64,000 nucleotides of DNA from contig OZ017746.1 in NCBI GenBank assembly GCA_963969365.1, forward strand, positions 1,054,001 through 1,118,000. Direction: 5' to 3'. This document shows positions 1-64,000 of this stretch, piece by piece (positions within the stretch are counted from its first letter, which is position 1; the number at the start of each line of letters is the position of its first letter). Origin of the DNA: Asterochloris sp. CNOR1 (lineage: Eukaryota; Chlorophyta; Trebouxiophyceae; Trebouxiales; Trebouxiaceae). The notes under the pieces were generated by a model. The model saw only the letters and a program-made list of their open reading frames with translations, searched no databases and was not told the DNA's origin. The translations under genes were made by a program, and so were the position numbers.

Positions 1-1059
1 CAGGGCGTGAAAAGCAGCCCCAGCTGGCGTGCTGCTGGCCCCAGGCCCCCAGCTGGAGCCCCTCAATGCTGATCTCCACGAGCGGGAGCAAAGCATCAAG
101 CTGGGCTGATGTAGCTGCTCCATCGCTGCCTGCAGGCATCCCCTCCCTGGAGCAGATTTTGGCGTTCCCCTCCCTGGAGGAGGCTGAGAAAGCACGCCGG
201 CAAGTTCTTGTTGTGGTTTGCTGTCTCACACATGTAATGCTGCCTCTGCCTTGTCCTTCGACCACAAGCCGCTGCCCTGTTGTGCTGCCGGGGCATGCTG
301 GCTCCCCTGACTCGCCATTCAGGGACGATGTATTCACACAAGCATGCTGCCTCCTGCTGCTCAACATCTGCTCTGCACCCTGCTCAGCCCTGACACTGCA
401 CTAGACCTGCAGGCGTGCTGACGAGCAGGCCCAGCAGGAAGCGCAGCGCCACAGTCGTGTGCGCACAGTTGACGCCAGCGGCCGCGCCTATGGCACCGGC
501 AAGCGCAAGTGCAGCGTGGCACGCGTCTGGATCTGGGTAAACTAGTCAACTTCCAGCAGACTGAGTGATCACAGTGCATCACCAGCTGCGAGAAGCCAGC
601 AGAAGCACCAGTTGCCTGGCAGCAGGGTCCCATGCATGATGCATGGTGACCCCAGGAGTAAGGACACTCTGTGGCCAATTGCTGCCATTGCTCCCCTATC
701 CAATGATTACAGAACTGGCTTCCTGTCGACTGCAGACAGGCCCTGGCCGGGTACTTGTCAATCACAAGCCCCTGAGCGAGTACTGCTCCTTCATGCGGCG
801 CGCTGAGGTGCTGTCCCCCTTCGCTGTGCTGGACCAGCTGGGCACTTTCGACATGTACGCCACTGTGAAGGGTGGCGGGGTGACTGGGCAGGCCCAGGCC
901 CTGCGTCATGGCGTCGCTAAGGCGCTGCAGGCCTTTGAGCCTGAGTGGCGCTGGCCGCTGAAGGCTGAGGGGCTCATGACAAGAGACCCACGAGTGGTGG
1001 AACGTAAGAAAGCAGGTAGAGCTAAGGCTCGGAAGGCCTTCCAGTGGGTCAAGCGGTGA
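1..1059 (+). CDS. Ribosomal protein uS9, mitochondrial type (5' end outside window)
   Basis: The C-terminal half is clearly bacterial/organellar S9: AYGTGKRKCSVARVWIW, then GPGRVLVNHKPLSEYC, a GTFDMYATVKGGGVTGQAQA stretch and the hallmark basic tail RKKAGRAKARKAFQWVKR. Exons that join in phase are 136-199, 413-536 and 736-1059. The N-terminal part (SLEQILAFPSLEEAEKARR) is an acidic/helical extension like those of mitochondrial S9 proteins; the first exon is not resolved and may start before the window. The intron 200-412 uses a GC donor (CG|GCAAGT). S9 sits in the small-subunit head, where its tail reaches the P-site tRNA. I infer a mitochondrial rather than plastid copy from the long extension; a plastid copy is possible. 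It converges on the RPAP3-like gene with about 140 bases between stops. Confidence 0.85.
200..412 (+). other. GC-AG intron (uS9m)
   Basis: Donor CCG|GCAAGT, acceptor CTGCAG. Splicing restores AEKARRRADEQAQQ in phase. Confidence 0.7.
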
Positions 1060-1197
1060 CACTGTGCTCCCCTGGAACATGAATTTAATGAATTGGCCGG
1101 CTTCAAGGGCTGGCTGCTGAGACCTTCACTTACACTCAGCAGCGTTTTTCTGACATGAATCAAAACCATAAGCTGGGTCCTGCTTGGTGGGATCCTC

Positions 1198-5129: not shown

Positions 5130-5347
5130 CTTTCTGCTTCTGCCTGACCCCCAACACAGGTGTTGCTGCCTTTGGCGGTTTCTGATCTGACAGGATATAC
5201 TCTTCTCCGACAACTCCTTCTGGCCACTGATGGGGTATCCCCACAAGACTAGACACTCCACCAGGAACTCAGTGCAACATCCAAGAAGGCAAATGGCGAC
5301 CCTGCTGCCATGGCTCCATTCACGACTTGTTGACTTGGTCTTGATCC

Positions 5348-5860: not shown

Positions 5861-5938
5861 GCTGGGCAGACCACCACTGTTCAATAATCGAGCACAGAGC
5901 TGACTGCTGAAAGCTGTACAGAATGCCTAGAACACAAC

Positions 5939-7167
5939 TTGTATTGCACGCAGCAGCCAGGGTGCCAGAGGCTCGGCCAGCATCTGCTTGCATGCAGCAG
6001 ACTTGGTGTCGTGGAGATTATGTGTGGTGACAGGGACGCCTGCCTGCCTTGGCGCTCTTCGCAAACATCGCTTCCCTGGAATGCTGCATCCTTCACACAG
6101 TTGACGTGGCCTGTGCCAGGCAGCGCAACTAGTGTGGTTGCTGTGAAGATTCTAAGGAGCAGAGCAGTGCTGGCTGGTTCTCAGGCCAGCATGAGCGCAA
6201 GCAGCCGCTTCAAGTGCCTTGGGTGACCCCTGCAGCTGTGTCGTAGTCCCCTGACATGCTGTCTACCTGTCATGTATGCTGTGCTGCAGGTACAAGTTCA
6301 GGTATCCTGGGCTGCTGCATCTGGCATTCAACCACGCCTCAGTGGATGGCAGGGGCAGCTATGCCCTGGCATGGCTGGGAGATGCTGCCCTCATGATGAT
6401 TGTCACTGAGCAGATGGGCGTGCTGTATCCTGGCCAGGAGAGGGGCGATTTTTCAACACTGCGCTCTCATGCAATCAGCAGGTGCGCTGCGGCCAGTCAA
6501 AGTGGCCAAGGTGTTGGGAGCCATGCAGACTCAGGAGTGGACGTACTGCCTTGTTGCTCCCTGCATGCTGTTCTGCTGACCTCTCAGGTCAAGTTGGCCA
6601 AGACGCTGAGAGCCATGCAGAGTGACGTCCTGCTTTGTTGCTCCCTGCCTGTCTGACCTTGAGGCAGCTCAGCAGTCTGGCTGGACTGCAGGGCCACTTG
6701 TGCAGCAAGAGCTGAGAAGCTTGGTCTGGGAAAGTTCATTGTACTTGGCAACTCCACGCCCAAGGTCACAGCAAACATGCTTGCAGAGTTGTTTGAGGTG
6801 AGCTCTGCAGGAGGGGTAACAGCCAACCTGCAGTAAGGCAATAAGAGCAGTGTGTGTATCTGCACTTTGGTGCTGTGCTGTACAGCTCTGTAATTGCAGC
6901 ACATGGGAGAGTGCATGTGCATGGCTGCAGGCAGTCCTTGGGGCAATCTATGTTGATGGTGGCTGGCAGGAATCGCGCAAGGTCTTCCTGTCGCATTTTG
7001 CCATGTCTCCTGACATCAGGGAAGCCTTGGCAGAGCACGGCTGCAAGTCTGTCCTAGACATGACCCACAGTGAGAAAGTACAAATGGCGATGCCCAAGTC
7101 CGCCATCAGGATGAAGGCTTACCTCATGTCACAGCAGGAAACCAAAGCAAGAAGGTCAAAACATTAG
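5939..7167 (+). CDS. Single RNase III-domain protein
   Basis: Four exons join in phase: 5939-6222 (start uncertain), 6290-6481, 6692-6797 and 6931-7167. The join at 6222/6290 creates LGYKFRYPGLLHLAF, the classic start of an RNase III domain. It is followed by SYALAWLGDAALMMIVTEQ (aligned to the NERLEFLGD signature), EKLGLGKFIVLG and AELFEAVLGAIYVDGGW (aligned to DxFEALIGAIYLDGG). No dsRNA-binding domain follows; the C-terminus is basic. Plant relatives with one RNase III domain act on organellar RNA, and some RNase III-like plant proteins (RNC1) bind RNA without cutting. The first catalytic Glu of the signature is Ala here and the second-motif Asp appears as Glu, so cleavage activity is doubtful. 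The 5' exon could encode a transit peptide but is not strongly supported. Confidence 0.72.
6496..6650. repeat. Two-copy tandem repeat in an RNase III-gene intron
   Basis: Two diverged copies, from 6496 and from 6588 (period 92 bases), share GTCAA.GTGGCCAAG, GAGCCATGCAGA and a TTGTTGCTCCCTGC end. Both lie in the intron between exons 2 and 3. I could not match them to an exon of this gene. Confidence 0.75.
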
Positions 7168-7464
7168 CAGGGTCAGCGTTCGTCATCTTTGACTTTACAT
7201 TGTCCAGCCCCCTTCCCTGGTTCCAATCAGAATTCCATAGTATGTTTGCAAATCCATGCGTGCCTTGGGGGCAGCATGACTGAGTCAGGAGCATGCAAGT
7301 TTGCATTGTGCTGGCTTGATTCGAACTTCAACAGCACAGTGACTGGCACAGCAATGGGCGGCCAGCTTATGGTGGAATGAAGCAGTTTGGAGGCAATGGG
7401 GCCAGCGTGGGAAGGCTTCAGAATCAGGGGCTCTACTGTGGGCACCGTCATTTTGGTAGCAGAT

Positions 7465-11184: not shown

Positions 11185-13468
11185 ATGCTTGTCAAGCTCA
11201 TCAGGGGCGGCCAGCTGCCGGAGGGGCAAAGAGCACACAGGGTAACCGGCTGGTCAGGCAGAAGCAGCTGGTGGATTTCATGCCAAGCTGCACGTTTTGC
11301 TTGCAGGTCATCAGAGGACGCACAATCACTCTGCTGCGCCATCACGGCAGGAGCGCCACTCTCTTGAAGCTGCTGACACCAGTGTTGAGCTTTGAGCTTA
11401 CATTCGAGTAATACCAAAGACTTGTGCAGGCCTCTGCTGCAGGTGCCATGCGCTGGACTCTGCCTGTTTCCATCAGGGAGGTGCGCTGGGCGAGGCTGGG
11501 ACTGTGGAGGACATAGAGGACGGCAGCAGCTGCATTCGATGCCCAGAGCATGGCTATAGGGTACGCGGGGCAGACCGCTGCTCAAGGACATGTAGGGACT
11601 GGAGCATGGCCGGCTGTATTCAACTTGCATGCAACAGCAGCCAGCGGATGTGTTGCTGGGGCATAGACGGTCCTCATATCCATGCTGCTCGAATGCTCAC
11701 CTGCGCCGCAGATCAACCTGCACACTGGCGGCCACATCGCTAGCGACCTCTGCGGGAACAGATGCGAGCATGGCGGCAAGCAACGCATACATACTGTATA
11801 TGAGGACGATGGCTGGATCTGGTGAGCATCAGCCATGCTCTTAGACCGACTGCAGCGGTGACGATCGCTGGCACCCTGAGCAAGGCCGATGCAATATTTT
11901 CACAGCGCCTGCTGCTGACACGCTTGCCATGGCTCTTGTACACCAGGCACGGCTGTACAGGGAGATATGCAGCGTTTCACCAGGGGCGCTTGGAGCCGCT
12001 GCAGTGCTTGCCATTGCCGATCTGGCTGTGCAGGGTACACAGCAGCTGCTGCGGTGTCAGCCCTGGCTGCTCAGGGTGCAAGGCAAGGCCTATTGCTGCA
12101 GTGCCAGCCAGCACTGACCACATTGCACTTGATGGATAGGAGTCGTCGCAGCTGCTGTGCGACACCTTGGCTGGCTGTTCAGTGTGGAAACAGCAGACTT
12201 GTCCCTGGCTCCTCTTGCTAGCAGTGTGTACCAGCTGCCTGGCTTAGGCACTTGTTTAGCTGTAGTCCACTAGCAAGATTCTGGTCTGCCCATGCAACTT
12301 GGGCAGAGGTGTGCCAGGCGCCTGCAACGATTGCTGCATGACCAGCAATGCCTTGCGGGGCAGAATCGATAGGTCCGGCCTGTCAAACCCCTCTTCTCCC
12401 CCACCCTCACCAGCAGTGTGTACCTCCAGCCTGTCTCTGGCACTTGCAGCTTCGCTTTGACTGCCAAACTCATAGACAACCCGAGCAGCTTTGTCAGAGG
12501 GGTACCTGCCGCCTAAAGCACCTGCGGCATCATTGGCACCGACTGTACAAGGTGGACGCGACAGCCACGTTAATGCCACTCCTCGCTAGCATTATGTACC
12601 TCCAGCCTGTCTGCAGCTGGAACTGGACCAGCAAGCTGTTGCATTGACCGTGTAGCTTTGGCAGAGGTGTATGGTGCTTGCAGCCAGTGATGCAGGACCA
12701 GCCACTCCTTAGCCTGGCTGTGCAGGGTGGATGTGGTGGACATACCGCATCCCCCCCGTGCCAGCGATGTCTACAATCAGCCCACCCGTGGTGGCAGGGA
12801 TGGGCAGGGCTATGGTCTAGACGACGGCCCCTCAGGCAGCTCCATCATCACAGTCATGGATGATGTCGGCAATTCCCCAGCTTTGGGAGGTTCCTGGGGC
12901 CTCACCCCTTATGCTGGCGTGGAGAGGCGGCCGCTGCCGCCCTCCCCTGTCAAGATGCAGGTCAGCCAACCGCTCGTATATGCTTGCTATCTTGGAGCTC
13001 CAACGCTGCCTCTTAATGGAGGAAGCTGCTACAATCCCATCCAGCCCTGCAATAACAGCTGGTGAGCAGACCTGCTCATGCTGCCCCCTTCTGAGGAGTC
13101 AGGGACGTCTTCTGCGCACCCAGGGAGAGGCTGCAACCTGACACTAACCAAGGGCAACCTCCTTGTGAGCTGCTGGGGGTCCTATGAAGTGTGTGCTGGC
13201 CGCAACCAAAGTCGATGTGCTGTTGCAGGTGCAAAGGCAGCCTACAGGACAGGACCAGCTGAACTTCAGGGGGCGCAAGCTGGCAGCCGGCATGCGGAGG
13301 CAGCTGGCCACCAAAGCTGTCGCTGCAAACCCAATCATGCCTCCCATGGCAGGCTCTGCCGACAAAATGACCAAACGACCCGCACAGCGCACATTGGACG
13401 AGCTCTTTGGGAGGCAGAAGGCAGCATGTGCTATCCCTGACGGCGGGCCAGTAGACATGGAGTCCTGA
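11185..13468 (+). CDS. Soluble Rieske-type ferredoxin with C-terminal extension
   Basis: Exons in order: about 11185-11241 (KLIRGGQLPEGQRAHR), 11307 onward (VIRGRTITLLRHHG), about 11442-11561, about 11713-11820, about 12726-12960 and 13212-13468. The core reads CHALDSACFHQGGALGEAG, DIEDGSSCIRCPEHGYR, INLHTGGHIASDLCGNRCEH, GGKQRIHTVYEDDGWIWV. The pairs CFH and CPEH are the two Rieske [2Fe-2S] ligand motifs, and the arrangement matches the small soluble Rieske proteins of animals and algae (RFESD type), which are electron carriers of unknown partner. After the domain comes a tail of about 160 residues, rich in Gly/Pro/Ser, then basic, containing QRTLDELF. The junction after RHHG is ambiguous: a GT donor at 11384 adds about a dozen residues, a GC donor near 11346 adds four. 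The start is the first in-frame ATG after a stop at 11059; an upstream exon is possible. Confidence 0.8.
12028..12740. repeat. Diverged repeats in the Rieske-gene intron resembling the next acceptor
   Basis: The intron before the exon starting near 12726 (CTGGCTGTGCAG|GGTGGATGTGG) contains similar segments: CTGGCTGTGCAGGGTACAC near 12028, CTGGCTGCTCAGGGTGC near 12068 and CTGTACAAGGTGGACGCG near 12543. Linked to these, (G/A)TGTACCTCCAGCCTGTCT occurs near 12417 and 12595, giving a period of about 180 bases. In the 12543 copy the acceptor CAG has become CAA. Confidence 0.6.
13385..13408 (+). other. PIP-box-like motif in the Rieske-protein tail
   Basis: Codons for QRTLDELF, close to the PCNA-interacting consensus Q-x-x-[ILM]-x-x-[FL]-F, followed by the basic GRQK. 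It lies about 20 residues from the C-terminus in a predicted disordered basic region, where such motifs usually sit. Binding is inference only. Confidence 0.4.
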
Positions 13469-13496
13469 CAGTACGCCTGCCCGCATCTGTATCATT

Positions 13497-44672: not shown

Positions 44673-47312
44673 TCAGCGCCCGGCTGATGCGGGCTCCTCC
44701 TCTGCGGACCCTTCTGACTCTGGGGTCATGCTGGCAAGGGCAGCGCTGCCAGGTGCAGCGGTGCCTGGTGGCGCACCAGCGACTGCATCAAAGCTGAGCT
44801 GGGCTGGCGCCATAGCCCCTGAGTTGTGTTCTGGCAGAGTCACAGGCGTGGCGCCAGAGGGCGGGGTCAGGACGGTGTCAATAACGTCGATGAAGGACTG
44901 CAGGCAGCATGAGATGGCCAGTGTCAGCCGTCTGCTCTCTTTGGGTGAGGGCAGCATGACCAGGCCATGTAAGTAGCATGCCCTCCAGATTGCATCGCTG
45001 TCAGCCGAAATAGAACCAAGTATTATGTGGCAATGTCGCTGTGCTGACAGGAAGACGTATGAGCAGGTGCTCTCAGATGGAACCTTCGAAGCAGGACAGT
45101 ACCTTGCACGCCTCGATGTCTTGGGTCACAATGCTGGCCGTCGCCCCGCCGCTGCTTAGTGAGAAGCTCCCATTGCTCCTACACAGCAGAGTCACAGCAG
45201 GGTCACAAGCATTAGGGCAAGGCAGAACCAGCTGCAGGAAGGGCATCTGGATGGTGAAGCACTTCGACAGCTGACACCTTGCGGCCAGTTGTCCCCTGCA
45301 GAGTGCTGCCTGTTGGTGCCCTCCCTAATGTTGGGCAAGTCCCATCGGTGCTTTTGCTTTTAAGATGCATTCCAGGGCGCCAGCAGATACAAAACCCACC
45401 CGTCAGAAGCTGGCACTGCGCGAATGGTGGCTGCCGGGGTGCTGCCTGGCGAGGTTCCCCACCCTGAGCTGAGCAGAGTGTCCAGGGTGACACCGCTCCC
45501 AAAGAAGGGGGTCGTCCAGATGGCATCAATGACGGGGACTGGGACCACAATGTGCAGCTCCAGGAGAGCCAGCAGCTGATCCGTAGGGATGGAGCTGAGG
45601 GGCGCCCCTGCACAGCCGAGGCAAGCACACAGTACGTGGGCCCCTGGGCAGCAGAAGTAAGCATGCAGTGAAGGGCAGCACCTGCCAGAGCGAACAGTGC
45701 TGAAAGCGACGGCAAGCACACAGTGAGCGCAGCCTAGGCCATCGAGGTTGGCAGAGCAGCCCCTGCCAGGCAAGCACACACATGTCCCTGAGCACATTCT
45801 CAGGCCCTAAACATGGGGTTCAGCATACGCTGAGCTGCGCCGCTGCTCTGGTGGCCAGCCAGTCTGCTGCACTCGCCTGTGCTCTGATAGATGGCAACTC
45901 ACATGCCAGAAGGTGCCGGCTGTGAACTGCAAAGGTACACCCATGGCCAGGTACCTGCCAAATATGTGGAAGGCTGCACAGCAGGTCTCTCCATGCAGAG
46001 CAGGGCTTGGATGCCCCAAGCATGTCACCAGTCTCAACACATTGCTGCTCCTCCGAGGAGGAGAGGCTCTGCACAGAAAGTCAGGCAGACAGACCCCTTT
46101 GACTTGTAAGGCCAGAGCCTGCATGCCCCAGGGGCCGCAGTGTGCTCCCCAGAACTCAGCCTCACCCTTGAGGAAGGTGGTGAAGGCGGCGTTGCTGGGG
46201 GCCAGCACGGTGGCCATGAAGCCTGGCTGGGCCAGCTGGAAGCCCAGAGGCGTTGCCTGAAGTGCGGCCAGGAAGCTGGTGAGGCCGCGGGCAGCCAGCA
46301 CCTGGCTGACGGTCTGGCAGCAGGGACAGCGGCCGCAGGTGGTCTGGCAGTACCCTGCATGCCAGCACGAGGTGTGACTGCTCTGCTGTCCACTGCAGGA
46401 GAGCTTCTCAGCAGGGGAGGGTGTCTGCAGGATGTTCTGCTGCCTGTGTACAGATCTTGCAGCCGGCGCAGGGGCTTGTGTGTACCCAATGAGGGAGCTT
46501 GCTAATGTGCACGGCTGGAAACTGGGCTGCATGCGATGTGTGCGTGGGGTGCTTGCTGGCTGCTGCAGGCTGCCATCCATCTTGCACCCTGTGTGTGGCT
46601 TGTCTGGCTTGCCCGGTGGCATGGGGCAGGATGTGCGTAGATGGCTTCAAGTCACTTCAGCTGCACGAGTTGGAAGCTGGGCCAGCCTCATACGCAGTGC
46701 AGTGCTGGCAATTACCCTCAGGCAGCTCCTTGACGCTGTTGAGCATGAACTTCTGGCCGCAGTTGCCAAAGTCGTGCATCTGGGCACAGGTGAACTGGGC
46801 GCTGGTGTTGCCCACGCCTGCAGTCCATGTGTAAGGGTGTCCCGCAAACACATGAAGCACAAACGCAGCACCCAGCTGGCGACCCTACTTGCCACACACA
46901 GGATGCATGGCAGCATTCCTCAGCTCTGCAGGGCAGGTCAAGGCTCCCAAGCAGCAGCTGCAGCGCCTCTTACCTGCAGCGCGGACATACACATCGCTGC
47001 ACTGACAGCTGGTGCCTTGAGTCACGTTCCCTGTGGAGTCTGGTGCATTGTTCCACTGTGCTGCTGCGGGGATGACCAGGCCTGCGTGGATCAGAATGCC
47101 TGTCACTTCAGAGGGTTTACTCAGCAAGGGACACTCTGTTTCAGCTCATCATTGAGGCCAGATCGAATGTTTGACTGACATGCCTCGCCTCAGATCTGAT
47201 GACTTGCAGCAGCTGTAAAGCACAGGCAGCCTCGAGATGCCTCGAGGCAAACCGGAATCACAGCCTCACCGAGAGCAACACAAGCTGTTGCCCCAGCTGT
47301 GGTGACCCTCAT
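44673..47312 (-). CDS. Secreted fasciclin (FAS1) protein with N-terminal Cys-rich module
   Basis: Start at 47312: MRVTTAGATACVAL joins GILIHAGLVIPAAAQ to make a clear signal peptide. Next is a Cys-rich region, CQCSDVYVRAA, FTCAQMHDFGNCGQKFMLNS and YCQTTCGRCPCC, with the spacing of ShK-like modules (C-x-D ... TCAQ ... C ... YC-x-x-TCGRC). Then one FAS1 domain: VSQVLAARGLTSFLAALQAT, FMATVLAPSNAAFTTFLK (H1 motif TVLAPSNAAF), LLALLELHIVVPVPVIDAIW, SNGSFSLSSGGATASIVTQD and SFIDVIDTVLTPPSG (H2). The tail is Ala/Pro/Ser/Glu-rich with no GPI-type hydrophobic end. FAS1 proteins mediate adhesion and wall/matrix contacts. Some exon borders between 45850 and 46150 are uncertain, because stop-free intronic sequence surrounds them. 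Confidence 0.85.
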
Positions 47313-47616
47313 GTTCAGCGCTGCTTTTCCAGCTCCTGTTGCCCACAGCAAGATGAGTAAGTGAAGCGCTGCTCACCACTATCTGAGATGCCCCTGACAT
47401 TGGACGCGCCAATAGGGTTTCATATATCATGTCAGCCTCACCGCCGGAGACAGCAAACTGAGAAGTTACATGGGTTCGTGTTCTCTAAACGAACAGGTGG
47501 GGGCCAGTGAGCAGCGTTCAAGAGGCATGCATTGGTGGGGTGTGGCGTTATGCAAAGGCATAGCTTTGCTCAAGTTGAGGAAGGTTTGACTGTAAGCCTG
47601 CAGGGCCAGGCCCTGC

Positions 47617-47814
47617 TCAAGGTTTGCACCAGAAGGCAGACCTGAAAAGCAGGAGGCACAGCAGCCACGGCGCATGCTCATCCCCCTGCATTGCCCGGAT
47701 CTCAATGCAGGGCCCTTGCCGCCCTGTGCAGAGGCAGAGACCCAGCAAATGCTCTCTAAGTATTCTCAGCTCGGCGTCGCTCAGCTGAGGAACCCTGATC
47801 CCAGCTGCCAGCAA
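47617..47814 (-). CDS. Short unassigned ORF
   Basis: Between the FAS1 start and the kinase stop. It encodes IRVPQLSDAELRILREHLLG, a convincing amphipathic helix, then a Cys-rich and hydrophobic stretch. A possible acceptor (CAGTAG) precedes it. It might be an exon of an unknown gene or an alternative 3' exon of the kinase. No family recognised. Confidence 0.25.
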   Translation of the reverse strand: MLAAGIRVPQLSDAELRILREHLLGLCLCTGRQGPCIEIRAMQGDEHAPWLLCLLLFRSAFWCKP

Positions 47815-47995
47815 CGGGGTTGCGCAGGCTAGGATGCCTCGCTACTGCTTGTTCGCGCCGGCCACTGCAGGGGGACCAGGGGGCTTATGCATTCTTTGCC
47901 TGAAGCCATGCTGCTGTGCAGCACTCCAACTCCCACGCAGTCAATCAGAGCTGCAAGTTGCAGCCAAGGGACCAGTGCCTGAACCCTTCAGGACC

Positions 47996-50900
47996 TCAAT
48001 TTGCAGATTGCACAGGATCTGCAGGGCCTTGCCAGCATGCAGCAGGCAGCTGCTTGCCTGACCACACCCAACCAACAACAACAACACAGCCTCACCTGCT
48101 GCGGCGCTCTGCTGCCGCTTGTCCGCGTGTATTGCGTCATCGATGAAGTCATCACTGTCCAGGGCAATGCGCTGAGAGCTGAGCGACTGCATTGCCTCCC
48201 GCACAATACGCTCCGTCTCCGCCATGCTCTGCAGCAGGAAACACAGGGACTGTCAGACAACTTGCCTGGGTTGTAGTCAAGTGGCTGTACGCTCTGAAGT
48301 GGGTCCAGCTTGGAGAAGCAAGTGTGCAGGTAGACAGCACATGCAAAATGAATGCAGCGGCCCGGTGATGGTGCAGCACGGGAGTGCAGGGACAACAACT
48401 CGACATGTTTCACAGCAGGCTGGCAGCCATGCTGTGCGTACAAGTGGCAGCCATGCTTGTGCATACAGGACGGTCTGGCTCGCAGCCATGCTGTGCAAGC
48501 AAGACGGCCTGGCCAGCACCAGTTCCCCTCAAGAAGCCTGCAAGTTAGGCCCTGGCAGCCAGGGACTGAGCAGACACCAAATAGCCTCGGCCGCCAGCAG
48601 ACCACCACCAGCCTGTCTGCCTGCCTCTTGACTGTGCAAAATTCCCAGTGGCAGCACTGCGGCCCGCTGCCATGCTCGGCCTGGCCTCTCACCTGCACGC
48701 CTGGGGGATACTCCCCAGCCTCAGCCTCTGCCACCAGGCGGTCATTCATCTCGCCCACCCCGTCTGGCAAGTCCGTTTGGTACCTGCTCATGGTGGAGCA
48801 GCAGCCATGAGCAACTGCTGACGGGGCACAGAGCCCACTGTTCTTACAGCTCACTGTGAAGCAGCACAACCCGCCTGCCGATTGATGCAGCAGCGCAGCA
48901 AGCTCTGCAGCAACGCTTGGCATTCACTAGAGGCAGCAAGTCTCAACTGAGCCCAATATTTGGAGCTAAGCGGGATGCTGTGAAAGTCCACTGACTGCAC
49001 ATGCAGCGCGAACCCCAGGTAGCAAGCATTTGACAACACAGCTCAAATCAGCCTGCAGCTCTCTTACCAGGGGTGTTCCAGTATTTCAGGAATGCTGATA
49101 CGTTTGTTGGGGTCTGCCACAAGGATGCGGGCCAGCAGGTCCTTGCAGGCGTCCGACACTCTTATGTGGTTGGGGAAGCTGTACTCCACATTCAAGATGC
49201 GCTGCAGCACAGGGCAGGACCCAGTCAGGCAGCAGCACCACAGATGCCGTCAGGGTGTGGCCGCAGAGTCTGAGTACCCCTACCATCCAGGTCACCACAA
49301 CAGGCCTAATGGCCTTCTCATGCAGGGATGGGTGACGTGGTGAGGCGTGGCTGGCACATTCATGATGCTGGGGTGAGTCAGGCGACCTCAGGGCAATAGA
49401 CCGTCCAATCTGGCAGCTTGAGACTGCTCACAGGCTGCAGTGAGGTTGACTGCTGTGTCATGCAAACAGGCAGGTCAAGCTGAAACGCTCAACCTGGGCA
49501 GAATCTGTGTGAAGGCTGTGTGCTGGCAGCGCTTGAGCAAGCAGAAGAAGTGCAAACGGAGTGTGGACAGGATATGTGCAGGACAGCTGCAACCCAAACG
49601 CAGTCTCACCTGCAACATGACATGCATTTTCCGCGAGGGCTTCAGCCGCTCATCCTCCGGCCGCCCAAAGGGGTATGCAGCTGCTAACATAATGTATAGC
49701 ATCACCCCACAGGACCAGACGTCTGCAATCTGCAGGTCACAGACGAGCAGCTTTGGACCAGCGCATGTACAGCATCATGCTAGTGGGTGCGCGTCTGAGG
49801 ACGCATTGGCTGCGTTTCGGCAGTGCAGGCACTCTGCGCAACATGGTTTACTTGTGAAGAGCCCTTGCAGCCTGCTAGTGCAGCTTCCACTTCAGTTTGC
49901 TGGTTTCAGCTTCCACTGCAGCTGCATCTGCTGCTGCATGGCCGTCTGCACTCGGCCTGGCAGCACCCACCTTGCCATCATACGTCTTGCCCTTGGTCGT
50001 GAGGATGACTTCAGGGGCAAGGTATGCCGGGGTGCCCACCCTTGACCCAGGAGCTGACTGAAATTTCTCATGCTGCAGCACAGACAGGACTGTCAACTCC
50101 ATGCGCCTGATTACCACGCTGCCTGCTTCATGCTAAGGCCAGCGCACTTGCGGGCTCTATATGTTTGCAGGTGGCGCACACTGAGGTGCCCACCTTTGAG
50201 TACCCAAAGTCACAGATTTTGATCAGCGGCCTGGTAGTCCCATCAAGGAGGGTGTTCTCCAGCTTGATGTCCCTGTTGGCAACACCCTGCAGACACAGCA
50301 GCAGGGTTGGCAGACTGAACAGGGACACACACCTGGACGGTTGCAGCAACCCTGCACAGCTGTCCCACATTGCTTTCACATGCCTTGTGAGCCCTGCTCA
50401 CTACTACAAGAGGCCTGGCAGCAGGCTGCATGCCCCTGCCAGCACCCCAGCCTGCCCAGACCTAGCTCTGTTGCCTGGGACAGTGGCCAGCGTCCCTGCA
50501 GCTGGCACACTGCCTGCAGGCTCACCATGCGGTGGCAGTAATCGATGGCAATGATCAGCTGCTGGAAGTACCAGCGCGCATCTGCCTCCGGCAAGCCCCT
50601 CTGGCGCACTACCAGCTGGAACATGTCGCCCCCTGCTGCATATTCCATGGCGATGGCCAGAAACTCCGGCGTCAAAAACACCTAGAGGCAGGGAGGTGGG
50701 CAGGCTCAGGGACCCAGGTAAGCACCTCTGCAGGCAGGGTTCTGCATGGCTGGTGGGCAGCAGCTGGACAGGCATGCGCGTCCTGTCGTACCCCACGATT
50801 TGCTATTTGGTCCTGAAGTGCTGCTGCAATCCAGGCAGCAGCAGAGACAGCATGGGAGTGCGCCAGGGGTGCAGCAGTCTGTGCAGGCAACTTTTGCTAG

Positions 50901-51320
50901 CAGCAGTGCTGACCTCCTTGAGCTCCACAATGTGAGGGTGATTCAGACGCTTGTGATTCAGTATTTCCCGTTCCACATACTTGGAAATCTGCAGCGCAGC
51001 AGATTGCAGTTAGGCACCCTGCCAGACAGCAGCACATCCGGCTGTACTTCAGGGCAGACTGCAAGGCATTGCAGCCCACCTTGTCGCCTCTTTCAATGAA
51101 TTTGATTGCGACCTGTGTGTTGGACTCCGTGTCCAGTGCCAATTGCACAAAGCCAAACGTCCCCTTATTCAAATCTCTCAGCTGCATGGTAGCATGTGAG
51201 CGGGTGAGGAAGCAAGCCAAGGAGCCTGGAGCATGTGGGAGGCTCTGCTCCCAGTCCCACCTTCTGATACCGAGTGTTGCCTGCCAGGGGCTCCACAGCC
51301 CTCGAGTTCCTTGGCTGCAT
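47996..51320 (-). CDS. SnRK2-type Ser/Thr kinase, copy A
   Basis: Exon 1 (51261-51320) encodes [20 protein letters not shown] and splices to [17 protein letters not shown] (Gly loop). Then [11 protein letters not shown] (ATP Lys), [55 protein letters not shown] (catalytic loop), [10 protein letters not shown] (DFG), [20 protein letters not shown] (activation and P+1 loops), [60 protein letters not shown] and an acidic tail [26 protein letters not shown] and the acidic tail are SnRK2 features; in Chlamydomonas relatives act in sulphur limitation and stress. The catalytic His of HRD is Asn. I end it at a TGA at 47996 after a last splice at a GTGAGG donor; without that splice the frame stays open to 47941. 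Tandem paralogue of the gene at 52037-55287. Confidence 0.9.
48417..48512. repeat. Minisatellite, three units, in a kinase A intron
   Basis: Three units of GGCAGCCATGCTGTGCGTAC type (GCAGCCATGC(T)TGTGC repeated at about 48424, 48448 and 48482), slightly diverged. Intronic. Confidence 0.7.
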
Positions 51321-52036
51321 TGCTGCAGCCCGCAGCAGGCTCCACCTAGCGTTCTGGGCTGCTGATTGGCAATTGAGCTGTCAGCTTTCAGGGGATGGGT
51401 GATTGACAAGCGCACTTGGAAGAGCCCTCGTTTATGCCCAGTTGGCTTTGTCGGCCTGACCCCTGGATGAGTACCCTCAACACGCTTTACGAAGGACAAT
51501 AGAGCTTGAGCTACCTGAGGTGACGAGTGCTTTGTTGCCTGTCCTTGAGCAGCAGGCCCCCTAGGGTTCCCCTCATACCCTTCAGCTGGTGAGCAGACAT
51601 CTTTTCCTTAAACAGTGCTGCTGCGTCAGCAACAGGCAAGGTTGGCCTGTGTGCTGCTCATTACAGCAGCTTGAAACAATGCTGAGCTGCACACAGAGCA
51701 ACTTCAGTTGAATCAAGACAAAAGAGTCGACACCGGCAGCAAGGAGAGTGCATCTGGTGCAGCAGATGGGCCCAAGCACCTCTTGCCTGACCAGCATGGT
51801 GCGGCTCAAGTGGAGATGCACAAGACAGGACCTTCGGTCTTCACGTGCGCAGCCACAGGACGTGGGCCTGCTGGTGGTCTGACACTGAAAGTCATATGGA
51901 GAGGTCTGAATTTAGGCTACAGAGGCAGGCCATCATGGGTGTGCACAGGGACAGTGCTGTGTGCTCCAAGCATGGGGGGGTCACTGACCCCGAGAACGGG
52001 GGAGCGGATGGCTGGGCAGGCTGACTGACGGGGGCC
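51321..52036. other. Region between tandem kinase genes
   Basis: Promoter side of kinase A and 3' side of kinase B. The stop-free stretches show no recognisable protein and no long repeat. Confidence 0.5.
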
Positions 52037-55000
52037 TCATATGCTGGCGCCCATGCCCCACTCGTCAAAGCCTGAGTTTTCATAGTTCTCTGCGTCCATG
52101 GTGTCGTCAATGTACTCATCATTGTCCCACCCCTGGGGGCCCGCTGGCGGCGTCTGCGCTTCCCGCACAATGCGGGAGATCTCCTCCAGTGTCTGCACAG
52201 GCAGCCAGACAATGAGCAGGCTGCTTGCAGACCCAGGCGAGCAAGCCTGGAAAGCCCGATCAAGCCTGACCACAAGCCTCAGTTGTTCCCCGAAGAACGC
52301 TGGGAACTGCCGGACATGTCTAGCAGCCAGGAAGAGGTGCCTCAACAGGTACAGAGAGTTGCTGACTTGCTGTTCAGGTAGGCCTAGGCCAGCAAAATTG
52401 TCTGCCATGCTGCAACTTAGATTAGCGCCCCTGCTACTTGCACCCAGAGTGCAGCCAACCAGAGGGGCCTTAGCAGTCCTCCCACGATGCCATAGCATTT
52501 TGATGCCCGTGGTCATGAGGTTCAGAAGCTCCTTCAAGGACCCCCAGCACGCAGCAGGCCAGGCGCTAGTGCCTCAGGACCAGGCAGACCTCTCAGCTGA
52601 CCTGAAGCCCGCTGCCAGGCATGGGCAGGTTGTCATTCATCTCCGCAACGCCAGGCGGCAAGTCCTTGCGGTACCACACGTGATCCTGGATCTGGGGGAC
52701 TGTCATGCGCTTGGCCGGGTCTGGCACCAGGATCTTGGCCAGCATATCCCGGCACTCCTTGCTGGCCTTCACGTGGGGTGGGAACTCATACTCCACCTTC
52801 AGTATTCTCTGCAGCAATGAAGAGGCGGCGCAGTGTGAGCAGCTGCAGAGCCAGCCTGCTCAAGTCAAGCAGGCTGATTCGCTGGGACGTGTCAAACTGG
52901 GGTTCTGAGACATGGATATCGGGACACAGCGGAGATGTGGCAATCAGAGACGGACCACATGGCAGCTGACCCAAGCTATTGTGTGCATGTGACTTGGCAA
53001 CAGAGAGCTGAACCAGCATGAACCCCACCCCTGCCCTGAGCGTCAGGTCAAGCTGCTGGCAGCCACAGCAGGCCCCCACCTGAATCATTTTCTGCAATTT
53101 CTGGTTGTCATGCTTGTCCTCTGGCCGCTCGAATGGGTAAGCGCCCACCAGCATGACGTACAGCATCACCCCACAAGACCAGATATCTGCAATCTGCAGC
53201 AGGCCACGCAAAGAGGGGGTCAACATTTGTGTCCCAGAGAAGGTGGGCGTGCAGATGCCCGGACCTCATTCAGAGCCCAGGCCTGACGGCTTGCTGAGGC
53301 CACACCCACCATGTTGGCCGTCTGAGAACTGCTGCAAGCTCATTCAGGCTTGCGCCTAGCCTGGAGAGTGGCAGGCATCGACCAGCAAGCCTGGCAGGTG
53401 GCCACTTGAGACTGCTGCAAACAGGCACCAGCGGCACACCTTGCCATCGTACGTCTGCCCCTTGGTGGTCATGATGACCTCTGGAGCAAGATATGCTGGC
53501 GTCCCCACCCTGCTGCCTGGCGCGGACTGGAACTTCTCGTGCTGCAGCGCAGCAGCCAGACGGCGTGAGTGCTTGCCATGGCATGTACACAGATGCTGGG
53601 CAGGGAGCGCAACACGCCATGGCAGCAACAGTGTGCCATGCCGGGGTACCTTGGAGTAGCCAAAATCACAGATCTTCAAGAGCGGCCGCGGGCTGCCATC
53701 TAGCAACGTGTTTTCGAGCTTGATGTCACGGTTTGCAACACCCTGCGGCAGCAGCACAGCTGTGAACTCTGCTGGTCCCATCGTGACAGATTAATGCTGA
53801 TGAGCCATCTGCCTTCCCGGCTTGCTTTACATGCAGCTGGCAGGCAGCGCTGCCCAGCAGACACGGCTTGACCCCCACACAGCTGGCGGCGCTAGCCATC
53901 GTGTGAACAACATGGGTGCTGCCCTATGCACAGAGAAGCTGCACTGCCCAGTAGCCAGAGCTTCCCCTTCATGCTGGAGAGGTGGCACACAGTGAGGCTA
54001 CAAGTCAGAGACGGCCGTCCAAGCACAATAGCACAGTACTGCCCAGAAGCCATGCTGGAAGTGATGCGCTGTCTTCCACCGCCATTTTCAGATTGCAGCT
54101 GGCTGAGCAATCCTCATGCAGGAAATCCAGCAAAGTGCACATCTTATTTCTCAAGCTGGCAGGCAAAAGACAGCTCTTATGCTGCACTGCCCACTATTCT
54201 GCGGGCCCCCATGGAGAACGCAGTGCGGCAGGCAGGTCACCATCGCATGTGCCACATGTGCCCATGCACATGGAGCTAAGCCGACTGCCCTGGGAACCAG
54301 AGCTCACCATTCTGTGCACATAGTCCACACCCACAATGAGCTGCTGGAAGAACCAGCGTGCCTCGCTCTCTTTCAGCCCGCCTTTCCGCACAACGTGCTC
54401 AAACATATCCCCCCCTGCTGCATACTCCATGGCGATCGCCAGGTACTGCTGCGTCAGAAACACCTGCATGGCAGGCAGCGGCAGTTGCAGCAGGCGAGCT
54501 GCGCCTTATGAGAGCACAAACAGGCAGGCCACTATGCCCATGCTGACAGGGCCAGCAGCAGCTGTATTGGGCAGGCACTGGCTGCACGGCCCAAAAGACA
54601 GAGCAGACTGCACTCAGCTTGTGCAGGCAATCCGCGCAGCAGCAGGCAGGTAAGCACTGAGCAGCTGCACGCCACCCAGTGAGCACCAGAGTGTGCACAA
54701 GCCGGCTGCTGACTGTGTCACAGACTTGCATCAGCTGCAGCACTGCTGGCAGGAGCAGGCTGGCAGCGCACCTCCTTGAACTGCACGATGTGCGGGTGCA
54801 TCAAGGACCTGTGGTTCATGATTTCCCGCTCCACATACTTGGTGACCTGCAGGCACCAGGCCGGAAGTAAGAAGGGCCGGTACATGACGGGCCTGCTGGT
54901 GCAGCTTTGGGTGCAGCAGCCACTGCCTGGCTGACTGAGTAGGGAAGCATGTCGTCAGACCCCAGGCCTGGCTGATTGCAGCTGTTCCCTTTGCAGGGGA

Positions 55001-55287
55001 GCATGACAGGGCGTGAGCACCTTGTCTCCCCGCTCAATGAACTTGATGGCCACTTGCTGGCCGGTGCTCTTGTCTAGCGCAAGCTCAACAAAGCCAAATG
55101 TGCCGCTGTTCAAGTCCTTGATCTGCAGGCGAGCACACATGGAGCTCAGCACTGTGACAACGCCCTACAACATGCATCCAGTAATGATGACAGCAATGGG
55201 GCTGCAGGCAGCTGCAGAGGGGTGTAGGCATCCTACCTTTTGGTATTTGGGATGTGACTGCAGCGGGTGGGTCTTGGTCTCTGACAT
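52037..55287 (-). CDS. SnRK2-type Ser/Thr kinase, copy B
   Basis: Exon 1 near 55287 encodes [17 protein letters not shown] and splices to [17 protein letters not shown]. Then [154 protein letters not shown] and a highly acidic C-terminus ([20 protein letters not shown] to EWGMGASI). Exon borders match copy A one for one, so the pair arose by tandem duplication of a whole gene. The N-terminal tail, the acidic tail and the intron sequences have diverged fully. Like copy A it has NRD for HRD and Asn for the first Gly of the Gly loop, so both are ancestral traits of the pair. Confidence 0.93.
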
Positions 55288-56551: not shown

Positions 56552-59446
56552 TCACAGTTCACTTTTGAAGCTGCCTGCACCAGCTCGCTGGTTGAGATAT
56601 TCAAAGGCTAGGGCTGTGTGCATGGCAACACCTGCAGAATCGTGTGTTTGAAGATCACTGCCAATGTGCATGAGGCATGCAGCTGGCAGGTGGGCAAGCC
56701 AACCTACCTAGGGGCAGCGCATCGTCATCAATCTTCAACTTTGGAGTGTGCAGACCACTTGTGGTGCCCTTCTTAGAGCTGCCCATGCCTATCCACGAAA
56801 ACACTGATGGTACTTTGCCATCTGCAATACCAGCACTCAAGAGCTCAGCAGCACAGCTCTCACTGCTGCAATAGGCATTTGCCAGCACAAGCAGCTGGCG
56901 AGATGCGCCAGGCAGCTGCCGACCGTTTGCAAAAAATCCGAAGTCTTCTCCTGTGAGCAGGAAGGGACTCATAAGCCAGGCTCACCATATCAGCGCACTC
57001 ACAACAGTGAGTGTGCTCGACTCACCAGCCATGCTGGGCTCTGCCTCCTGGACTGCTGCCCCTGTCACCCTGCATCCGAACGGCAGACGATCAAGCTTGC
57101 TCAGGCTCTCTGCTTTTGCGTCGAGCACATAAGCAACATCAGGCTTGCCTGAGGCCAACGTCCTCAACAAACTGTGTCAGCTTAGCATCATTTACCACTG
57201 GAGGGTAGTAAGGCCTGCAAGCATCAGTAGCTAAGTGCTGGTGTTGCGCTACATCTGACGGCAACCTTCATAGCAGATGGCAGACGTGTCACTGGTGCAC
57301 CATGCAGCACGTACTGCGAGTTCTGCATCCAGTCCAGCTCTGTCAGACAGCCCAGCGCAGCCGCAGTGTTCTTGATCACCTACATGCAAGAAGGGCGACC
57401 GTTGACGCGGCCTGCTTCAGAAAGCCAGGAGCGTCAAGCACGAACAGCAGGTGCACAAGGAGCATCTTTCGTTGTGTCCTGCTTCAGCTGGCTGCGTGAA
57501 GACCAGGCACAAAATCGCTCACTGGCAGGTGCAGGTGCAGGGAGCAGTTTGTCTTGCAGCCAGCTTCAGTATGCTGCATGAAGCATCAAGCATGAAAGCT
57601 GGGCTCCCCTAACGTGCATTTCACCTCCTCCATCCGTTTTCTCAGGCGCACAGAGGCTTCATGGGTCAAAGTTCTGAGTGTGCCTCCCTGCAGGGCAGTG
57701 TACACGCTTGGGGTCAAGCCAGCAGTTGCGCTGCTCAACGTCTGGGAGCTGCAGGCTCAAGGCCTCACCAAGGACACCGTGTCAGGAATGACATTGTAGG
57801 CTTCGCCAGCATTGAATCGCGGGATGCTGATGACAGCAGAGTCAAGTGGCGAAGTTTCTCGGCTCACCAGAGTCTGCAGCAAGTCATGGCAGCTGTCAGG
57901 CAGGTCAGACAAGCCCAGATGTCAAACAAACCAGCAGCAGGGTAAGGTCACAGCCCACCTGTAGGGCTGTGACAATGGCTGCACCAGCAACAACTGGGTC
58001 AATATTGTTGTGAGGCATGGCTGCATGCCCACCGCGTCCCTGCAACCGTTGCAGGCAGGGTGTTTCTCATGCTACCTCTGCAATAGACACAGCAGGATGC
58101 ACATGCAAATGGAGGCTTGCTGGGCCACACCTTGATCGTCAGGTCAAACTGGCAAGCAGATGCCATGATGGTCCCCTTCTTTGTGTGGATGGTGCCAGTG
58201 GGAAGCGTGGGCCACAGGTGAAAGCCAAAGACGCCCTTGACGCCCTTGAGATGGCCTGCATCAAGGCCAGGGAAGTGTGTCGCAGCCATTCTTGTTCAGG
58301 CAGCTGGGTCACCTACTGTGGGAACAAGATCTGGGGGCTGTACACGTGCAGAGCGGCACACCACCATGAAAAGAAGGGCAGGCAGACTAGGGATGAGCCT
58401 GTGTGGGCAGCAGGCTGCCGAGAGTCGCGAAATCTCCCTGTATGCAGCTCTTGCAGATGCTGATGAGCCTGAAGGGGTGTGGATGCTTGCTCACCCTCCT
58501 TGACCAGGCGCTTGCCGCCTGCACCGCCTTCTTCAGCAGGCTGGAAAAGGAGCTTGACACTGCCTTGCAGCTCCTGCTCATGCTGTTTGAGCAGCTTGGC
58601 TGCACCCAACAGCATGGCTGTGTGCCTGCAGGCAGCATGCGCCCTGCAGCTCCTGCTCATGCTGTTTGAGCAGCTTGGCTGCATGCAACAACATGGCTGT
58701 GTGCCTGCAGACAGCATGCGCCATGCAGCCGTCATGCCAATGCCAGGTGCTGCCCAGCACAGCCACCACTGCGTAGGGTGCTCTCACCCATCATGGCCAC
58801 ATGCATGCATTTTGCCAGGGACTTTGCTCCTGCACAGAGGCATCATGGAATGAGAAATGTTGACCTGCAGCTCAGCGACAACAGACCTCAAGAAAAGGCT
58901 GTGGCTCACGAGTGTGGCAAGTCTGTTTCCTCAGTAATTGGCAGAGCATCTATGTCTGCTCTGAGAGCAACGACAGGGTTGCCTTTGCCGATGGTGGCAA
59001 CCACCCCCGTCTTGGCTGCTGGGAACCTGAAGCACCAGAGCAGCCATACCATTGATTGCAGCAGATGAAGCAGCAAAACAAGTCAGAGAAGCAGCCCCAT
59101 CTCCGCACTTGTAGTTGATGCCAAGCTCGTCCAAATGCTTTCGTATGGTGGCACTTGTGTTGTGCACTTCATACCTGGAAACAGCCACATGAAATTGCAT
59201 CACCTAAGAGACACAGTGCAGCAGCAGAGACAGTACTGGGTTCTTGCACCAGCTATCCAGTCCCTACATGAGCTCTGGCCATTGGTGCAGCTGCCTCTGG
59301 ATTGACAGGACCCAGTCCTTCTGTGCCCGAGCTTCAATAAGCAGCTTCCCTAAAGCGTCTGGCGTCGAGGCTGCTTGAGCTGCCTGGAATGCAGGCCAGC
59401 CCATCAGCATGCTTATGCATACAACCATGCATGTGGCAGGCATCAT
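56552..59446 (-). CDS. ILR1-like M20 amidohydrolase (IAA-amino-acid hydrolase family)
   Basis: Start at 59446 gives a signal peptide ([20 protein letters not shown], cleavage near QAAQA). Then [237 protein letters not shown] and a [20 protein letters not shown] end. All metal ligands of the M20D family are present: C and H of ACGHDGH, the EE of QPAEE, H of GFHLWP and H of GLHTP. Plant members release free auxin from amide conjugates in the ER; algal substrates are unknown. Intron 57070-57148 has a GC donor. The exon at about 58640 carries a 79-base partial duplication. The last exon ends in SEL, not a KDEL signal. Confidence 0.92.
57070..57148 (-). other. GC-AG intron (ILR1-like)
   Basis: Minus strand donor CTCAG|GCAAGC, acceptor ATGCAG; 79 bases. 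Splicing gives [20 protein letters not shown] and removes an apparent frame break. Confidence 0.85.
58551..58718 (-). repeat. Duplicated exon start (79-base period) in the ILR1-like gene
   Basis: Reading the minus strand, TGCAG|GCACACAGCCATGTTGTTG (upstream copy) is followed 79 bases later by TGCAG|GCACACAGCCATGCTGTTG, both continuing into AAGCTGCTCAAACAGCATGA and AGGAGCTGCA. Only the downstream copy continues into [11 protein letters not shown]. Both acceptors are intact. Confidence 0.85.
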
Positions 59447-59782
59447 GATGAGGGTCAGTGACAGGGTGTCTCCCCTGTCAACACCAGACAGAATTCTGGT
59501 TATGTGGAGCAGATGCAACTCACATTACACATTTGGTCAAACACTTAAGCCAGTCACAACCACCTAGCTGATCCAATCTGAAAGCTCCTCTGCACGGTAT
59601 GTAGCAGCACAGGAGATCATGCTGTGATAAGGAGCAATGGGGACTCCCCTGCCCGACCTCAATGCCGGGCCTCTCCCCCTTGGCCAGATCAGGTCAGCCA
59701 AGCAACCAGTGCGAGCTGACCTGACCTGCGGGATATACAGCCTTGTGCAACTTGTCAGCACCAGTTGACAAAGTCAAGTCTG

Positions 59783-62700: not shown

Positions 62701-64000
62701 TGTGCTTGTCTGGAAAGCTTCCTGTGTGCCAGCCCAGCTGCTTCTGGCAGTGGCCCCAGCACCACCCACACCCACCCCCCCAGGCCCACGCTTGTCCAAT
62801 GCTCTGAAACCCCTTGAATTGATGTCGCAGCTGCTCCAGGGCAGCGGCCCCAGCGCATGCCCCTGAACAGCGCAGACCGCACCTTCAGGCAACTGCGGGA
62901 CCTCAGCTTCCGGGGGGCCACCATCAAGCTCGGGGAGTGGGCCCGCGCTGCACAGCAGGGACGCAAGGAGAGCCAACGAGCTGAGGTGAGTCCAGACCAC
63001 GCGCCCTGGGTCCCAGTCACCTAAGCTTGCTGGTGAAGATCAAGCAACTTGGGTCAGGGCTCAGGATCAAGGGGAGCCAGGGTGAGGCACCTGAATGCTT
63101 TCATGAGGGAAATGCTGTGGGCAAGAACTTGCTTGGACCTTGGTGGTCAATTGGGGGCCTTTGCAGACAGCGCACCAGGGTCATCTGCCATGCCGCCCTT
63201 ACAGCCAACTGCTTTGGCTCATACAAGCTGTGGCATGGCAACTCACACCACACCAGCAGGGCACCCCAGCAAGGTCTGGCTGCTGCACCAGGAGCCTGCC
63301 ACATGCTGGGCGCTGCCTCCAAAGCAATGTGCTGGAAGGCGAGTGCATTGCAGAGCGAGCTTTCTGCAGAGAATCCGGCTGGAGCTGAAGGAGCACATTG
63401 TGCGGGCAGCTTCCAGCTGCTGCTGTTTCTGAGGTGCAGGGCTACTGTGAGGCTGCTGCAGCACTGGCCCAGCACGTCTTGCACAGCCTGCAGGCCTGAC
63501 GCCTGTGCATGACCCTGCCCAGGTGACCCTGTCGGAGCTGAAGGACTACATGGTGCACCTGCGCAGCATGCCCAACATCAGCCGCCATGCCAGCCTGGCC
63601 GAGATGGTCAAGCGCTTCATGGTGCAGCCGACCTTTGTGGCGCGTGTGCACGCCGAGCAGGACCTGCTCTCTGGCGCGGGGCCGGAGGCCTGCTGCGACT
63701 TTATTGAGGTGGGAAGTGTAGGCAGCTGCGCCATGCTTCCCAGCAGGGCGGCGTGCCAAGCTGGGCCTGCTGTTGTGTGCGGGAGCGCAGGTCAGCTGCG
63801 ACTTGGGTGAGGTTGGGCCCTGTCGGTGTGCCACCAGGTGCATCTGTGCTCTTCCTCTCTGTGGCGAAACACCCCAAGCAGCTTCTGCTCCCAGAAGCGC
63901 AGTCGTTGCCGCCCGCTATGATGTCTTTGAGGTGGGTGTGTCGGCAGTCAGTACATCACATCTGCTCTCCTTGCAGAAAGTGTGTCAAGGGCTGTAGGCT
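59783..64000 (+). CDS. VPS33: VPS33, SM-family subunit of HOPS/CORVET (3' end outside window)
   Basis: Exons read as a Sec1/Munc18 protein of the VPS33 branch: MRGKKILVLDPKITGFLGLL, VPLLKEHGVEQ, DVRSIIYLVRSTMQNAQLIA, AAYFMPRRSLVCEEVLEREG, IQVAEYPLNFIPFDSDVLSL, DLVVDGDPSSLYYTARGLMR, GRVTGKGPSAVGVRDLVLRM, IDQLVLVDRVVDLISPMCTQ, LTYEGLIDETLHIKNG, TFRQLRDLSFRGATIKLGEW, LSELKDYMVHLRSMPNISRH. VPS33 binds SNARE bundles and drives fusion at endosomes and vacuoles. The conserved blocks (DREVDMVTPMCSQLTYEGLIDE in plants; DRVVDLISPMCTQLTYEGLI here) leave little doubt. The first exon is open from an ATG at 59783 but the first about 50 residues are not conserved; a start at the MRGKK Met (59931) after a TGCAG acceptor is an alternative. 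It diverges from the ILR1-like gene (336 bases). The last conserved exon ends near 63708. Confidence 0.9.
61249..61263. repeat. Homopolymer G run (15 bases)
   Basis: Fifteen consecutive G residues in a VPS33 intron. Together with the C run at 2835 it is the only long homopolymer here. Confidence 0.9.
61515..61560 (+). repeat. Decayed copy of a VPS33 exon start
   Basis: CTCCTGGTCATGGGTGGCGA, CTCGCTGAGCCTGTACTGCA (LLVMGGDSLSLYCTVRS) mirrors the true GACCTGGTGGTGGATGGCGA, TCCCTCCAGCCTCTACTACA (DLVVDGDPSSLYYTARG, 61606-61655), 91 bases downstream. Confidence 0.75.
62036..62190 (+). repeat. Two decayed copies of the VPS33 exon start at 62369
   Basis: True junction: GCTGCAG|GAGGCAGCCGCATCGACCAG (GSRIDQLVLVDRV). 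Copies: GGGGTAGCTGCATTGACCAA then CTGGTGGTGGTGCTGC (62036-62071, SCIDQLVVVL) and CACTGCAG|GGGCCAGCTGCATAGACAAG (62141-62170, SCIDKALL). The second keeps its acceptor; the first has lost it. Confidence 0.8.

Follow-up and report, generated by a model that had tools for sequence, protein, structure and literature searches.

Gene Content and Gene Models

The window, the whole 64-kb stretch analyzed here (C1:1054001-1118000), belongs to a genome of 56.4 Mb in 21 contigs. All seven predicted-protein fragments compared with Pfam matched the families named in the first-pass annotation: RNase III, soluble Rieske, Tab2, 5'-nucleotidase, RNB (the RNR1-like gene), Sec1 (VPS33), and M20 peptidase (ILR1-like). 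The GC content of the window, measured in 4-kb steps, is 55-61%, and complete predicted genes have about 10 exons; a genome of 56 Mb with 56-62% GC and 9 introns per gene was reported for Asterochloris glomerata (PMC6652019).

The full sample comprised 324 kb, namely the window and 26 loci, of which the first 18 came from 18 contigs and eight were fetched later. Gene models were produced on both strands with our own gene finder (minimum exon 20 bp), self-trained on these sequences without annotation or transcripts; some neighboring genes are still fused, and genes of the last eight loci were predicted without retraining. Repeats were identified by BLAST self-comparison, which returned no pairs at a spacing below about 50 bp; these are absent from all counts except those of the tandem-array search. 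Predicted acceptors of the window and loci L002-L019 carry a strong TGCAG/G word (slash, splice site), with T in 91%, G in 95%, and C in 94% of sites at positions -5 to -3. The density of CTGCAG, acceptors included, is about twofold higher in introns than in exons (4.76 vs. 2.31 per kb). Two similar genes, given a protein-kinase label by eye, are located in tandem on the minus strand (44673-55122); their exon sizes mostly match, and their introns could serve to date copies.

Exon-Edge Copies in the Genes of the Window

Diverged intronic copies of an adjacent exon edge and its splice site had been noted from the sequence alone, and self-comparison recovered exon-edge copies in TAB2 and in the 5'-nucleotidase, RNR1-like, VPS33, and ILR1-like genes. 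In TAB2 (plus strand), the acceptor edge of exon 25261-25448 is copied at 25155-25174 (20 bp, 95% identity, 101 bp away), with AG kept. The 5'-nucleotidase gene (plus strand) contains a copy of a donor edge and the start of the intron at 30211-30338 (source 30053-30185, 73%, spacing 158 bp), with GT kept; the source donor follows position 30066. Another copy in this gene, at 31415-31452, derives from the acceptor edge of exon 31580-31750 (38 bp, 87%, spacing 147 bp), and its AG is changed.

In the RNR1-like gene (plus strand), the donor edge of exon 41663-41907 is copied at 41973-42005 (33 bp, 94%, spacing 91 bp, GT kept). The exon end at 41907 coincides with the ends of the alignments to Pfam RNB and, in a PDB search, to RNase II. 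This exon end has a second copy, a weak one, at 42055-42119 (source 41843-41906, 71%, score 28), and the exon called by the finder at 42042-42168 is probably a decayed copy wrongly taken for an exon. The acceptor edge of exon 42938-43138 is copied at 42714-42774 (61 bp, 72%, spacing 218 bp, AG kept). Two other intronic copies in this gene represent deeper exon segments: 40450-40487 (38 bp, 87%), whose source 40120-40156 lies 90 bp inside the exon end, and 40682-40718 (39 bp, 82%), whose source is 40963-41000.

The ILR1-like gene (minus strand) contains at 58641-58729 a back-to-back tandem copy of the acceptor together with 64 bp of exon 58495-58625 (93%, spacing 79 bp, AG kept). The exon at 58625 aligns with the solved ILR1-like hydrolase 1xmb, and a gap in this alignment suggests that a small exon immediately upstream of 58625 is lacking from the model. 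In the VPS33-like gene (plus strand), the donor edge of exon 63494-63708 is copied at 63755-63816 (62 bp, 73%, spacing 103 bp, GT kept).

For two genes only part of the first description was upheld. The Rieske intron 11822-12725 indeed contains repeats (12209-12731, plus strand; pairs 12220/12412, 12401/12576, and 12269/12627), but its matches to acceptor edge 12726 itself are only weak (12022-12036 and 12159-12188). The tandem repeat of the RNase III gene exists (6496-6567/6588-6651, plus strand; 72 bp, 75%, spacing 92 bp), but it pairs intron with intron within intron 6482-6691.

Abundance of Local Direct Duplications

At a permissive cut-off, self-comparison of the window yielded 121 near-diagonal pairs less than 1,500 bp apart. 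With a score of at least 36 and a spacing below 400 bp, 16 direct pairs were found in the window, as compared to 0.0 in three order-2 Markov randomizations, and 82 in the 18 other loci, again vs. 0.0 in randomized sequences. In the 324 kb, 134 pairs are direct and 2 inverted. The pairs in excess of the randomized sequences and the predominance of direct orientation indicate short-range direct duplications rather than an effect of composition, and a composition artefact was rejected on these grounds.

Probes of 55 bp from exon edges matched the adjacent intron with a score of at least 30 for 26/447 acceptors and 21/441 donors in the window and the 18 loci, while length-matched introns of other genes gave 0.00 and 0.05%. 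Exon-interior probes matched the adjacent intron in 1/309 cases in the same sequences, so that edge copies are commoner than interior copies; a finding that they are no commoner had been proposed as the refutation of the idea. The effect is local, since other introns of the same gene were matched at 0.27, 0.08, and 0% for offsets of 1, 2, and 3, compared to about 5% for the adjacent one. Among the 588 introns with a length of 80 bp or more, long probes detected copies of neighboring exon edges in 63 (about 11%, in 324 kb of this one genome). The 65 junction matches, 13 of them from the window and 52 from the loci, comprise 35 acceptors and 30 donors, in line with the claim that both kinds of edges occur; with introns of other genes matched in length, 0 and 2 matches resulted from 1,679 trials. 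The proposal of a frequent local duplication process leaving exon-edge copies of differing ages is therefore supported beyond the window too, by loci from 18 contigs.

The median spacing of 48 copies is 112 bp, with a 10-90% range of 79-237 bp, close to the 80-220 bp given initially. Introns with a copy are longer than those without (median 378 vs. 255 bp), which agrees with the suggestion that copies lengthen introns, but long introns are also larger targets. An unevenness of spacing modulo 3 (21/11/6 in 38 copies) became weaker in 48 copies (21/14/13) and was dropped.

Position of Copies Relative to Splice Junctions

At threshold 26, acceptor-side exon 40-mers matched the adjacent intron in 22/427 cases at the edge, 2/315 at 60 bp inside the exon and 0/173 at 120 bp; the donor-side values are 20/414, 2/306, and 0/154. 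Background level is reached 60-80 bp from the edge, a distance that fits units close to 100 bp in length. Intron interiors are copied as well, with local copies of 54/1875 upstream and 56/2067 downstream 40-mers (about 2.8%). Exon-edge 40-mers exceed intron-interior ones 1.8-fold (threshold 26) or 2.5-fold (threshold 30), close to the increase, at most about 2-fold, that is expected if selection holds the exon half of a pair. Junction 40-mers matched for 35/433 acceptors vs. 19/430 donors, and a second probe set gave 21/205 acceptors and 11/208 donors vs. 21 and 20 of 602 for intron interiors (41/1204).

The geometry of genes contributes to this pattern, because a protein-sparing duplication with exon sequence must include an exon edge. 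Of 90 clusters of pairs, 22 exon-exon or intergenic ones were set apart, and exon-intron clusters made up 50 of the remaining 68 (0.74) in the 324 kb, with 42/55 in the 26 loci, 8/13 in the window and 10/15 in the eight later loci. Random tandem duplications were simulated on the predicted gene maps, with rejection of events having both ends in exons, neutral decay of introns and extra copies, and slow decay of exons. The first simulation, in which units measured about 60-300 bp, returned an exon-involving share of 0.49-0.53. Runs based on one spacing distribution returned 0.48-0.58, and those that used the observed spacings 0.58-0.69. The observed 50/68 thus reaches or exceeds the upper limit of the simulations, with p = 0.0001 against 0.50 and p = 0.25 against 0.69.

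In the strictest young subset, 8/8 near-complete pairs were exon-intron, compared to 3.1 expected by placement (p = 0.0004; two exon-exon pairs set aside), although several of these alignments lie almost wholly in exons, so that decay bias remains. Broader young subsets gave 12/17 and 16/23 vs. about 0.49-0.56 expected after decay. Tandem arrays with a period of at least 40 bp were located at junctions in five cases and in introns only in one (244 kb). Arrays with a period of 18-40 bp (11 in introns, 6 in exons, 4 intergenic, and 4 at junctions) show no junction preference, and simple short-period slippage was rejected as the whole explanation. A process centered on splice junctions, as envisaged in the first-pass annotation, is accordingly not required, since intron interiors are copied too and simulated random duplication yields shares of 0.48-0.69, as compared to the observed 0.74. 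In our reading, survival and visibility explain most of the edge bias, and a modest genuine preference, possibly for acceptors, may exist in addition.

Shape of Copies and Their Flanks

The clearest young units are arranged back-to-back or nearly so. They include the ILR1-like unit (58562-58729; 79 bp, 93%), L008 (119 bp, 88%), L013 (68 bp, three copies, 93-96%), and L003 (65 bp, 87%). Homology at the ends of these units, judged by eye, ranges from 0 to about 10 bp.

Most pairs have a different shape. Among 90 pairs with a score of at least 40, the aligned length (L) is at most 0.7 of the spacing (d) in 68 and at least 0.9d in 15. L is likewise at most 0.7d in 35/40 single exon-intron and 11/13 single intron-intron pairs, while simulated decay of tandem units gave 13-15% (small indels) or 33-43% (heavy-tailed indels) of such pairs. 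For pairs with at least 85% identity the values are 19/25 vs. 5-9% in the simple and 25-41% in the heavy-tailed simulation. In a strict test of the immediate flanks of 67 pairs, 2.9 and 3.1 were obtained vs. 3.0 and 2.9 in controls, with no excess, whereas simulated decayed tandem units gave 3.2-3.6 vs. 2.6-2.7. A looser flank test of 60 pairs gave 15.27 vs. 14.28 in controls (p = 0.005), with 15.8-16.1 for simulated decayed tandem units. The pairs used in the shape and flank tests are partly non-independent, several coming from one array. Copies shorter than their spacing, together with the lack of a strict flank excess, indicate that tandem duplication plus decay alone fails to explain the shapes; either intron turnover is heavier than modeled, or part of the copies arose by templated insertion of short patches some way off.

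Three near-identical 68-bp units extend across a predicted donor in L013 (545-748); their two weaker relatives on other contigs perhaps point to a gene family. A tandem duplication of an intron and a whole exon (404 bp, 81%), with GTGAGG words at the start and end, occupies L012:6184-6987. An array in L020 (9283-10000; C1:2519283-2520000) runs off the end of the locus; its units, about five in number and 137-151 bp long, carry predicted introns and 48-bp exons. Arrays of a 141-bp repeat beside a viral insertion were reported in Asterochloris (PMC6652019).

Fate of the Copied Splice Sites

Among 27 sequences searched with junction-containing probes, AG is kept in 25/31 acceptor copies and GT in 14/18 donor copies, with 21.3 and 11.6 expected from control positions (p = 0.10 and 0.15). 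These counts are biased, since such probes favor copies that keep the site; a scan with exon-only probes, which is less affected, found AG kept in 7/16 and GT in 8/17. In the window, the dinucleotide is kept in 11 of 12 scorable junction copies, several of which are short or weak. With exon-only probes, the A of AG matches in 0.50 of copies and its two neighbors in 0.88, which hints at selection against an extra acceptor; some of these copies perhaps never reached the junction. Of the copied sites, 23/31 acceptors and 12/18 donors score no lower than the 10th percentile of real sites. An in-frame stop is present in the would-be extension of 26/48 copies, and use of the copied site would cause a frameshift or in-frame stop in 41/48, the frame being uncertain in genes cut by the locus end. 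The decay series proposed from the sequence is thus plausible, but the accompanying statement that most copies have a mutated AG is not established, the two scans being in disagreement (25/31 vs. 7/16 kept).

Origin of the Copies

Direct local repeats are present in loci from 18 contigs, they fall off from the exon edge to the interior, and copies of intron interiors also occur. On balance, the junction-like pattern is probably made by short local direct duplication, combined with survival where the protein is undisturbed and with slower visible decay. Under this explanation, genic stretches of roughly 30-130 bp would be copied in direct orientation, mostly 60-400 bp away and in some cases clearly in tandem, presumably by replication slippage or template switching. 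Copies enlarging an exon would be lost by selection, while those placing the extra unit inside an intron would survive, and a surviving copy with exon sequence would then carry an exon edge. Because selection would hold its exon half, an exon-intron copy should remain recognizable for longer than an intron-intron copy, by a factor of up to about two. The outcome would resemble duplication of junctions.

The main competitor concerns the copying step: a single event, of the kind known as template switching, could copy a patch of 30-60 bp and insert it at a distance of 60-240 bp. Such spaced templated insertion is a serious possibility, though we place it below even chances; it is compatible with the survival-based explanation, and the likelihoods assigned to the two overlap. 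The short aligned lengths fit it, both in single pairs (35/40 exon-intron and 11/13 intron-intron) and in those of at least 85% identity (19/25 vs. a simulated 5-9 or 25-41%), as do the immediate flanks of 67 pairs, which equal controls where simulated tandem units show an excess. The looser flank test (15.27 vs. 14.28, p = 0.005, near the simulated 15.8-16.1) and the back-to-back young units point instead to tandem events. Copying might also be drawn to the junctions themselves, for example through microhomology of the TGCAG/G acceptor and CAG/GTGAG donor words or through transcription or splicing. The 8/8 young pairs (3.1 expected, p = 0.0004), the arrays of longer period (5 vs. 1), and the overall 50/68 clusters speak for this, as does the 404-bp unit of L012 with GTGAGG at both ends, the inner one a predicted donor. 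Acceptor junction 40-mers (35/433) likewise exceed exon-only acceptor (22/427) and intron (about 2.8%) 40-mers, and the second probe set exceeds its intron interiors (21/205 and 11/208 vs. 21 and 20 of 602). Yet the later loci (10/15) show no excess, the broader young subsets (12/17 and 16/23 vs. about 0.49-0.56) are less telling, long-probe acceptor and donor totals are near equal (35 vs. 30 of 588), and many copies straddle the junction instead of ending at it, so that we regard a junction-biased duplication as unlikely. We are similarly doubtful of an active, short-range templated-copy process that is junction-biased and seeds introns with splice-competent exon edges at a spacing of about 60-240 bp; if true, it would lengthen introns and supply material for alternative exons and new introns.

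Two further readings carry less weight. Copies could be retained because they act as decoy or alternative splice sites or as poison extensions that tune expression, and both the kept dinucleotides (AG 25/31 and GT 14/18 vs. 21.3 and 11.6, p = 0.10 and 0.15) and the strength of the copied sites (23/31 and 12/18) are consistent with such a role. Exon-only probes (AG 7/16, GT 8/17; A of AG 0.50 vs. 0.88 for its neighbors) argue against it, as does the raw count of predicted frameshifts or stops (41/48 copies), and functional retention appears improbable. An artefact of gene models or composition is very improbable: the models are self-made and trained without transcripts, exon 42042-42168 is probably a decayed copy, and the ILR1-like model seemingly lacks a small exon, but the repeats are visible without any annotation, and searches of Pfam and PDB uphold the identities of the genes. 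The survival-based explanation remains the preferred one.

Comparison with Known Systems

Introner elements are repeated sequences inside introns. The copies described here share with them the intronic repeats, but are local to each gene for the four units searched. In the whole genome, three of these units matched nowhere but at their own locus, and the fourth (L013) has two weaker relatives, on C6 and C7; these results are lower bounds, since short copies are missed (a known 33-bp copy was not recovered). A dispersed mobile or introner element was accordingly rejected for these four units. Tandem duplication of whole exons, as in mutually exclusive exons, does not describe the exon-intron pairs either, since a whole-exon copy with both splice sites was found in 0/56 exon-intron pairs with a score of at least 34 in the window and 18 loci; 26 of these contain the acceptor edge, 21 the donor edge, and 9 none. 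The 16 exon-exon pairs, which include the real whole-exon case of L012, are outside the 56.

Tandem duplication is well described as a source of introns (PMC3443670). In the model of Rogers, as presented in PMC3443670 and PMC4974935, a short tandem duplication of an AGGT-containing exon segment likewise adds splice-site sequence, but the new intron arises between the two copies, whereas here an existing intron holds the copy. The RdRp gene of potato (PMC4974935) contains a similar direct local duplicate, of an intron 3' end and the 5' part of the next exon. It is, however, a single case that became a new intron and exon, while here about one in nine sampled introns has a predicted exon-edge copy, many of them decayed-looking. 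Frequent duplication of segments within genes, introns included, is known as internal gene duplication (Gao and Lynch, 2009, as cited in PMC4974935 and PMC3443670). The present copies are likewise direct and confined to one gene (134 direct vs. 2 inverted pairs; in the adjacent intron and rarely in others), but the citations of that work concern duplicated segments and the creation of introns, and here an exon edge lies inside an existing intron. The open-access literature searched, as far as its accessible text extends, contained no description of exon-edge copies as common intron content, and the word "tandem" is absent from the main text of the Asterochloris glomerata paper (PMC6652019).

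The origins of intron length, cryptic splice sites and new exons are open questions. In this compact genome, about 11% of the sampled introns carry copies of their own exon edges that could be dated. Such a genome would make it possible to follow duplication, decay and what mis-splicing costs across many natural cases, and to tell mutational bias apart from survival.
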